DNA of 64,000 bases, taken from Sulfurimonas sediminis (GTDB taxonomy: Bacteria; Campylobacterota; Campylobacteria; Campylobacterales; Sulfurimonadaceae). The stretch covers positions 558,001 through 622,000 of the forward strand of contig NZ_CP041235.1 in assembly GCF_014905115.1 (NCBI RefSeq), in the 5' to 3' direction. Below, piece after piece: positions 39,984 through 42,108 of the stretch. How positions within the stretch are numbered: position 1 is the stretch's first letter; each line of letters starts with the position of its first letter. The position numbers and the translations under genes were made by a program. The notes beneath the pieces are model-generated. The model was not told where the DNA came from, did not search any database, and saw only the letters and a program-made list of their open reading frames with translations.

Positions 39984-40972
39984 ACATTGACCTTCTGCAA
40001 CCATTTCTCTTTTTTCAAAAACGAAAAAGGGTCAGTGAGGTATTTGCTGTATTCACCGGCAAGTTGTGCAAGTGTCTCTTTGTCTTGAGCGAGTTTTTCA
40101 ATGATGACCCAGCTGTTCCAGGCATCATATGTATGCCACTCCTTTTTGTCAACCTTGGAGTTTGGAAGACGATAATGATAGGCAGGACGCGGTGAAATTT
40201 TTTCCTCGGGCAGCGTCTTGAAAACCTGATTGGAATCTATCCAGGCAAGGAGAGGCAAGAGGTCCAGCGCGCGATTGCGGGTAGGGTTGTATTGCAGATA
40301 GTCGCAGATAAACCGGTTTATATCGGGTTGGTAAGAGGCTTTGAGTACTTTTTGTATATACTCCTCTTCAAAAGGTTTGATATAGGGGCTGATTCTGCGT
40401 ACAATATCCGGTTGCAGCCATAGCACAAGTGTCTCATAAAGAATGAAAAATGCCCTGAGTGTATCAATAATTTCTGTTACCTCAAAAGAGAAGGCCTGGG
40501 GATTGATATGAAAGCCAAAGGCATAAAGAGGGTTGGCATCAGTTCCAAGTGCTCCGTTGGTCCGGAAAGTCTCTTTTATCTCTTCTACAATTTCAATTTT
40601 ATCCAAAGGAAGCGGCGGTGTTGTAATTTCATAAGGCACTATGGTTTGTGAAAGGGTGGCTATGAACTCTTCCAATGCCAGTGCGATTTCTGCTTCGATA
40701 AACTGGTCAAGTCCTATGTTCTGCAGCCATTTCTGCAATCCCTGAGAAATAAGAAACTGAAAATCAAGCACAAGATTAAAGTCACCATAATGTGTGTCTC
40801 TGATTTTGTAATGATAAGGATTTATTTTTTCCATACTGCCGGATTTTAGAGTTTCAATAAGTAATTCTGCACTTTTTTGTAATTCTATGGCACTGTATTC
40901 AAGTTCAAAGCCGACTTTTCGAAGTTCATGTGAAGAAGCAAGAAGCACAGGTGGTTGAACAAAAAGATTCAT
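39962..40972 (-). CDS. Amidoligase-family enzyme (glutamine-synthetase-like fold)
   Basis: A 336-residue protein that looks like the putative amidoligase family (PF12224). It has LRKVGFELEYSAIEL near the N-terminus (Glu pair for metal/ATP), YEITTPPLPLDKIEIVEEI around residue 115 and AFGFHINPQAF around residue 150. The family is predicted to form amide bonds with ATP, making peptide-like metabolites or modifying proteins. The start codon lies only 8 bases from a 272-bp palindromic element, and no ribosome site is seen, so expression must depend on the element's sequence. It is followed, overlapping, by a class I amidotransferase. Confidence 0.75.
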   Translation of the reverse strand: MNLFVQPPVLLASSHELRKVGFELEYSAIELQKSAELLIETLKSGSMEKINPYHYKIRDTHYGDFNLVLDFQFLISQGLQKWLQNIGLDQFIEAEIALALEEFIATLSQTIVPYEITTPPLPLDKIEIVEEIKETFRTNGALGTDANPLYAFGFHINPQAFSFEVTEIIDTLRAFFILYETLVLWLQPDIVRRISPYIKPFEEEYIQKVLKASYQPDINRFICDYLQYNPTRNRALDLLPLLAWIDSNQVFKTLPEEKISPRPAYHYRLPNSKVDKKEWHTYDAWNSWVIIEKLAQDKETLAQLAGEYSKYLTDPFSFLKKEKWLQKVNVWLKKQI

Positions 40973-40980
40973 ACTGTAAT

Positions 40981-41252
40981 TAAGTACCTATCCAAAGATA
41001 AAACCAATTAACAGCGATAAGTAAAAGGTACAGATGCAAGGCAGATTTTTGCAGCACTAGCCGTAGTTAATGCAAAAAAATCTAACGAAGACAGATGTGC
41101 CTTTTACTTATCGCCCAAGGGGAATTTTAAAATGATACCTATTAGTGCGTTAAAAACTCTTGAAGCTACTGGTAGCTTCTGCGAATTTTTGCCTTCTACT
41201 GGGCATCATTTTAAAGTTCTGTTAATTGGTTTTATTTTTGGATAGGTACTTA
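40981..41252. mobile_element. 272-bp nested-palindrome, MITE-like element
   Basis: The ends are 34-bp inverted repeats (40981-41014 and 41219-41252) differing at one position, beginning TAAGTACCTATCC. Inside are two more stem regions. CGATAAGTAAAAGGTACA (41015-41032) pairs with 41096-41113 with one mismatch. TTTAAAATGAT (41126-41136) pairs with 41204-41214. The second arm ends in a perfect 8-bp hairpin, GAAGCTAC/GTAGCTTC (41162-41179). The whole could fold as a branched cruciform. TA flanks AGTACC at both ends, as expected for insertion at TA by an IS630/mariner-type transposase (inference). No coding region lies inside. It occupies almost the whole gap between two divergent genes. Confidence 0.75.
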
Positions 41253-41267
41253 TACTCTATATTTAGA

Positions 41268-41273
41268 TATAAT
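41268..41273 (+). promoter_or_regulatory. -10 element for the YmdB-like gene
   Basis: TATAAT lies 28 bases before the TTG start and 15 bases outside the right end of the palindromic element. Any -35 contact would fall inside the element. Confidence 0.45.
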
Positions 41274-41301
41274 TTCGAAAATTTAACAAAAGAATTATAC
41301 A

Positions 41302-42108
41302 TTGAAAATAGCATTTATAGGCGATATACTAGGGCAACCCGGGCGTGTCATGTTGCGTGATTATCTGAAGAAAATAAAAGAAGAACACAAAATTGATTTT
41401 GTCATTGCAAATTATGAAAATGCTTCTCATGGTTTTGGATTGACACTCAAAAATGCAAATGAACTCTTCTCATACGGCATTGATGTTATGAGCGGAGGCA
41501 ATCATACCTGGGATAAAAAAGAGATTATTCCTCTTTTAGATACGCATGAACTGCTGCGACCCCATAATTATCCGGATGAAGTACCGGGAACCGGTCTGCG
41601 TATTTATGATATCAAGGGTGAAAAACTTGCTGTCTTGAATCTAATGGGGCATTATGCAATGCCCTATACTGACAATGCTTTTCGCTGTGCAAAAAATACG
41701 GTTGAGGCACTGCACACGCAGGAGATAAAAAATATTTTTGTTGATTTTCATGCTGAGGCTACAAGTGAAAAACGTGCTATGATGATGATGCTTCAGGGAA
41801 AAGTAAGCGGAATTATCGGGACACATACCCATGTAGGCACTGATGATTTTCAAATTGTAAACGGTACGGCATATATGAGTGATATAGGGCTTACAGGGTG
41901 CCGTGACAATATAATTGGCATGGACAAAGATGTTCCTATAAAACAGTTTTTGACAGGGCTAAAAGGGCATTTTGATATTCCCAAAAAGTGTAAAAAAATT
42001 CTGCAGATGGCTGTTATGCAAATCAACGACGGCAAATGCAGTGAGGCATACAAACTGAAAATTTTTGATGACAGCAGAGTGATTAAAACCGAGGCATGGC
42101 TGGATTAG
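41302..42108 (+). CDS. YmdB-family metallophosphoesterase
   Basis: A 268-residue protein of the TIGR00282 family. Two-metal site motifs: FIGDILGQPGR, ANYENASHG, SGGNHTWDKKE, LMGHYAMP, FVDFHAEATSEK and GTHTHVGTDD. Bacillus YmdB is a 2',3'-cyclic nucleotide phosphodiesterase that affects biofilm and spore-related behaviour; the role in this phylum is unknown. It starts at TTG (41302). It ends with a 4-bp convergent overlap with the next gene. Confidence 0.9.
   Translation: MKIAFIGDILGQPGRVMLRDYLKKIKEEHKIDFVIANYENASHGFGLTLKNANELFSYGIDVMSGGNHTWDKKEIIPLLDTHELLRPHNYPDEVPGTGLRIYDIKGEKLAVLNLMGHYAMPYTDNAFRCAKNTVEALHTQEIKNIFVDFHAEATSEKRAMMMMLQGKVSGIIGTHTHVGTDDFQIVNGTAYMSDIGLTGCRDNIIGMDKDVPIKQFLTGLKGHFDIPKKCKKILQMAVMQINDGKCSEAYKLKIFDDSRVIKTEAWLD

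Follow-up and report, generated by a model that had tools for sequence, protein, structure and literature searches.

Does the 272-bp palindrome within a 64,000-nucleotide stretch of the Sulfurimonas sediminis chromosome (the window, C1:558001-622000 of a 2.32-Mb single-contig genome) owe its symmetry to transposition, or is its folded form itself maintained by selection? The answer reached here is that both probably hold: the palindrome would be an IS630-mobilised miniature inverted-repeat transposable element (MITE) that carries a selected structured module of two opposed hairpin arms.

Parts and mobility of the element

The limits given in a preliminary description of this DNA are exact (40981-41252, 272 bp), and the repeats reported there with a single mismatch, at 40981-41014 and 41219-41252, are indeed 34 nt long, complementary at 33 of 34 positions, and enclose two stem-loop arms. 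The parts of the element are as follows.

40981..41252, no strand: whole element, including both TA target copies (40981-40982 and 41251-41252), delimited by the empty sites
40981..41014, + strand: left terminal inverted repeat, IS630-type, beginning TAAGTACCTATCCAAAGATAAAACC; element positions 1-50 match the ends of three IS copies at 86%
41014..41114, + strand: arm 1, with its motif strand on +; covariance model R1, 92.1 bits
41038..41042, + strand: 5' side of the arm 1 internal loop, AAGGC; conserved columns in alignments A1 and A2
41084..41090, + strand: 3' side of the arm 1 internal loop, AACGAAG; conserved columns in alignments A1 and A2
41115..41121, no strand: inter-arm linker, core of a small CCC..GGG hairpin; from sequence and fold
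41122..41219, - strand: arm 2, with its motif strand on -, inverted relative to arm 1; covariance model R1, 89.8 bits
41145..41151, - strand: 3' side of the arm 2 internal loop, AACGCAC; from sequence and alignment A1
41191..41195, - strand: 5' side of the arm 2 internal loop, AAGGC; from sequence and alignment A1
41219..41252, - strand: right terminal inverted repeat; its final 31 nt are identical to the IS end

As a single strand, the element folds in the order outer stem, arm 1, the very small CCC..GGG hairpin, and arm 2. Folding as RNA, which had been proposed as a check, gives a minimum free energy of -121.6 kcal/mol versus -56.3 (sd 4.5) in dinucleotide shuffles (z -14.65, with none of 200 shuffles as good), and the opposite strand reaches a z of -14.5. 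In agreement with the earlier observation that nothing is encoded inside, the element contains no open reading frame of at least 80 amino acids, and a search of Rfam gave no family at its gathering threshold and, below thresholds, chance-level scores only.

The TA at both ends had been taken to fit insertion by an IS630/mariner-like transposase, and it proves to be a duplicated target. Two genomes of the same genus, in which the neighbouring amidoligase is 93-94% identical, have an empty site with a single TA (CTGTAAT-TA-TACTC), whereas the window has two (CTGTAAT-TA[AGTACC...GGTACT]TA-TACTC); thus, the element inserted with duplication of a TA target. A second full copy, 84% identical, is located in the same genome at C1:2025877-2026144, and many others occur in relatives, so that the single copy at a position conserved in all relatives, which would have spoken against mobility, is not what is observed. 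Moreover, the genome contains the suggested longer partner, in the form of three IS copies of about 1.1 kb whose ends are the same as those of the element, at up to 31 of 31 nt; the copy examined has two reading frames with DDE_3 and winged-helix/HTH domains, as in IS630. Short, devoid of a transposase gene, present in multiple copies, bounded by terminal inverted repeats and a target duplication with matching empty sites, and sharing its ends with an IS that has a DDE_3 transposase, the element is a non-autonomous transposon (MITE) with the ends of a resident IS630-type IS. It was most likely moved in trans by the resident IS630 transposase onto its TA target.

The insertion lies in a divergent promoter region (window 40960-41302), where it precedes the predicted amidoligase start codon by 8 bp and ymdB by 49 bp, and it probably alters the promoter of the amidoligase gene. 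Elsewhere in the genome, a lone IS630-type end stands before an unrelated gene (L029, C1:1634600-1636500), with no matching second end in the stretch fetched.

In being non-coding, with TA ends, a TA duplication, and the ends of a resident IS630-type IS, the element resembles IS630/Tc1-mariner-derived MITEs such as RUP of Streptococcus pneumoniae. Unlike RUP-type MITEs, it has 34-bp ends and a two-arm core that is conserved by covariation and is also found in elements with other ends.

A conserved core with variable ends

Matches to the element are present in 49 of 100 genomes of the genus. The 44 elements cut out are nearly all 260-290 bp long, most of them 264-272 bp, and all are built in the order left end, arm, CCC..GGG linker, inverted arm, and right end. 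Within Campylobacterota, about a dozen or more different end sequences accompany the same core, including TAAGTACCTATCC, TAAGTGCCTGACC, TAAGTCCTTAGCC, TAAGTAAGAGACC, ATACCAATCCC, GGGCACCTCTAAAAA, TATTGCCATCC, TAATAAGCAACAG, TAGACTTCTTGC, TAACTGACCTTA, ATCACCGCACC, TCACTACCAGC, and TATGAGACCACTGC, among others. The end classes may not all be independent of one another. Cores can be up to 77-80% identical where the ends are only 41-52% identical (e.g., L097/L105 and L078/L086), and, since like cores carry unlike ends, cores and ends have been exchanged, or ends replaced. The preliminary description had considered the symmetry greater than transposition needs; the excess is there, but it belongs to a distinct module of two inverted arms that also travels with many other ends, rather than to a palindrome peculiar to these ends. 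Those elements inspected that have GGGCACC and TAGACTT ends show a different loop in one arm. No autonomous partners of three other end classes were seen in the S. sediminis genome, and loci elsewhere with TAGACTTCTTGC ends are short elements with no clear transposase.

Several further repeats were encountered among these loci. The TAGACTTCTTGC ends also enclose very short palindromes (about 90-130 bp) with unrelated interiors (L325, L327, and L339; G310), and a second MITE-like palindrome, with GGCATTAAGTTAAG ends and CCCTTTGGGT flanks, lies within arm 2 of a TAAGTGCCTGAC-type element (L330, G311:C24:7100-7900). Near the apex of arms (arm 2 of L068; L330), a short insert resembling TACCCAAAGGGCATAGCA is found repeatedly and lengthens the elements to about 290 bp. 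Another palindromic repeat, with CAATGCCATTAAGTTAAG ends, constitutes a distinct family (L028:350-480 and L032:360-500, at C1:343949 and C1:2223859 of the same genome).

Evidence of selection on the fold comes from alignment A1, which contains 67 arms, both arms of each element being included and each read on its motif strand. RNAalifold yields 37 pairs, 34 of which have changed on both sides; paired cells amount to 96.3% versus 66.8% in shuffles, and the covariation score is 0.817 versus 0.247 in shuffles (0 of 500 as high), falling to 0.10-0.17 when partners are slid by 1-3 columns. Compensatory changes, whose absence was to have counted against a structured RNA, are thus found well above controls. 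Within the stem, an unpaired motif, AAGGC opposite AACG, is nearly invariant, its letters being conserved in Campylobacterota at A100 G100 G97 C99 and A100 A100 C100 G99 (percentages) and in the Syntrophia set described below at 95-100%. In addition, the motif strand tolerates wobble pairs: G-U outnumbers A-C by 210 to 12 in the inner columns of A1, exceeding it in 66 of 67 arms and falling below it in none, and by 82 to 5 in the Syntrophia set, whereas the opposite strand of that set, where the folding program is equally free, gives 26 to 33; these counts come from related sequences, and RNAalifold favours G-U on whichever strand it is given. The large surplus of G-U over A-C suggests selection on the fold of the motif strand, and the upkeep of a double-stranded palindrome alone cannot produce such polarity. 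Taken with the compensatory pairs and the nearly invariant loop, this makes the selection on the folded form proposed at the outset well supported.

These observations also bear on the reading of the element as an ordinary MITE, whose inner symmetry would be a functionless remnant of inverted duplication and palindrome repair. The transcripts of bacterial MITEs are generally strongly paired (PMC2229807, PMC10969869), the two arms are alike in inverted orientation, and template switching can homogenise palindromes, so that template-switch repair could generate some of the covariation without selection. However, such repair should do away with fixed unpaired loops and would not make G-U prevail on a single strand, whereas the internal-loop letters are fixed in divergent copies, the length is near-constant, the G-U excess is strand-specific, and the same core is found with unrelated ends and recurs in a second phylum. 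The ordinary-MITE reading, already disfavoured, is therefore regarded as quite improbable.

A further alternative is that the module works as single-stranded DNA, the motif-strand hairpin being recognised by an HUH or tyrosine enzyme in replication or transposition, as in REP/RAYT systems and attC. Inverted arm pairs are reminiscent of BIMEs, and conserved unpaired positions together with strand polarity are typical of hairpins recognised in single-stranded DNA. Nevertheless, G-U is the commonest non-Watson-Crick pair (210 versus 61 for all other mismatches together in the inner columns of A1), which suits RNA better, and the IS630 ends and TA duplication of the window element are explained by a DDE transposase. 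A single-stranded DNA module is accordingly considered rather unlikely, and the wobble pattern leans towards RNA as the selected form.

The element can also be set against known hairpin repeats. Integron attC sites have their RYYYAAC / GTTRRRY boxes at the stem base, whereas the motif of the element lies within the stem. REP/BIME repeats with RAYT transposases likewise consist of inverted pairs of imperfect hairpins with strand polarity, and the Syntrophia form shares with them a placement after stop codons; their hairpins measure 20-40 nt (PMC3733652), in contrast to arms of about 98-101 nt here, which do not match the short hairpins that, with a GTAG-type tag and RAYT, define REP/BIME, and the window element, unlike them, has DDE-type transposon ends and a TA duplication.

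Single arms in Syntrophia and orientation to genes

The covariance model detects 23 arms in the S. sediminis genome, and the same arms are present in many named Sulfurimonas records. Across Campylobacterota, 23 of 200 genomes and 14 of 47 genera contain matches. Among 80 loci recruited by pattern from many phyla, good model scores were confined to Campylobacterota, and the whole genomes behind 12 other loci added two matches, one from a bin of Mesonia (50.6 bits) and the other from a Syntrophaceae bin. In the class Syntrophia (Thermodesulfobacteriota), the model finds the arm in 62 of 155 genomes, with up to 20 per genome and E-values down to 1.6e-10. Plasmid and phage collections contained no real match; in viral contigs, pattern matches had no model score, and the flanks of loose-motif matches paired no better than the control.

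The Syntrophia elements consist of a single arm, bounded by GGCTGTTCAAAAA...TTTTTCAACAGCC, whose upper stem differs, and their centre is as in Campylobacterota, TGC-AAGGC / AACG[CA]-GCA, although this loop match is partly ascertained, as the model used for the search rewards the motif. Most Syntrophia copies share the 12-nt string CAGATGCAAGGC with the window arm. Chance likeness is unlikely, given this string, the shared purine mismatch, and the 3-bp TGC/GCA step; the resemblance may represent either homology or convergence. Flanks of the single arms such as TTAG/TTAG suggest short target duplications (L488-L576).

Orientation was scored at 76 independent Syntrophia loci with ORF-based gene calls. 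Where the flanking genes are co-directional, the motif strand is antiparallel to them in 29 of 34 cases (29:5, p = 4e-5; 32:3 in an earlier count under a simpler gene rule), and in about 20 loci the distance between a stop codon and the 3' end of this strand is exactly 3 bp, whereas no stop codon comes so close to its 5' end. Either oriented insertion or selection against motif-strand transcripts within operons could account for this bias. The exact stop-codon placement in fixed orientation could also reflect strand-specific insertion, as the single-stranded DNA reading would have it.

All two-arm elements of the S. sediminis genome have convergent arms, so that the first arm transcribed, whichever side transcription comes from, is read as its motif strand. 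This order would suit a put-like RNA element for antitermination or anti-polarity, which would explain how operons tolerate the insertion. Such an element predicts the opposite of the 29:5 bias, in which the motif strand is antisense to co-directional genes; antitermination is contradicted by the Syntrophia orientation, largely refuted for the single-arm form, and very improbable overall.

As for gene context, only one of 13 elements in the S. sediminis genome, a 136-bp remnant, lies between co-directional genes, compared with eight of 14 classified elements in other Campylobacterota genomes. A preference for divergent promoters was rejected as a general rule, since it holds for 10 of 13 elements in the S. 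sediminis genome yet for five of 14 classified elsewhere.

Possible action of the arms and significance

A bidirectional intrinsic terminator spread through transposition would agree with the one terminator-like site found, on the motif strand of arm 2, with the T-runs in several arms, and with the position of single-arm elements right behind stop codons. Nevertheless, the T-run is not conserved, the Syntrophia example examined contains no terminator-like site, and the internal-loop letters would be left unexplained; a terminator of this kind is unlikely, and a simple one was discarded because not all members have, on the relevant strand, a GC-rich hairpin with a T-run behind it.

Under the preferred explanation, a MITE with a selected two-arm module, the arm would act as a folded single strand, RNA more likely than DNA, and might be recognised by a widespread, conserved host component. 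RNA polymerase arriving from either side would transcribe a motif-strand arm first, and the arm could then end, cut, or block the transcript in a direction-dependent manner, which would protect the element, or the genes on its far side, against read-through. The Syntrophia bias fits such a block, since co-directional mRNAs mostly lack the motif strand, although the bias could arise from insertion instead of selection, and a strong two-way block does not fit the eight of 14 co-directional placements in other Campylobacterota genomes. An RNA-level, direction-dependent block on transcripts is put forward as a possible but doubtful function. A broader proposal, somewhat more plausible although still short of probable, is that the AAGGC/AACG-loop module, as RNA or single-stranded DNA, is carried from phylum to phylum by unrelated transposons, exchanging its terminal repeats on the way, because it acts on a conserved component of the host's transcription or RNA machinery.

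That MITEs can have folded transcripts is well established (PMC2229807, PMC10969869, PMC5896051). Correia/NEMIS and ERIC are likewise small MITEs whose folding transcripts can affect the neighbouring mRNA (PMC2229807, PMC10969869), but each has been described as a single family, with ends and a clade of its own, whereas here one core is combined with many end types and reaches a second phylum. Chunjie of Geobacter and QMITE2 of Coxiella, compared by description only, are also MITEs with long paired transcripts (PMC10969869, PMC5896051). A core that keeps its shape and its loop letters in elements bounded by many different ends did not come up in the literature searched, which included few subscription papers.

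The usual view of a bacterial MITE is of a deleted insertion sequence in which the ends are the sole working parts. Here the interior is conserved and the ends are variable. If the arm is a functional module, it would help to explain the success of some very small non-autonomous elements with many transposases, and it would add an unnamed structured element to Campylobacterota and Thermodesulfobacteriota.
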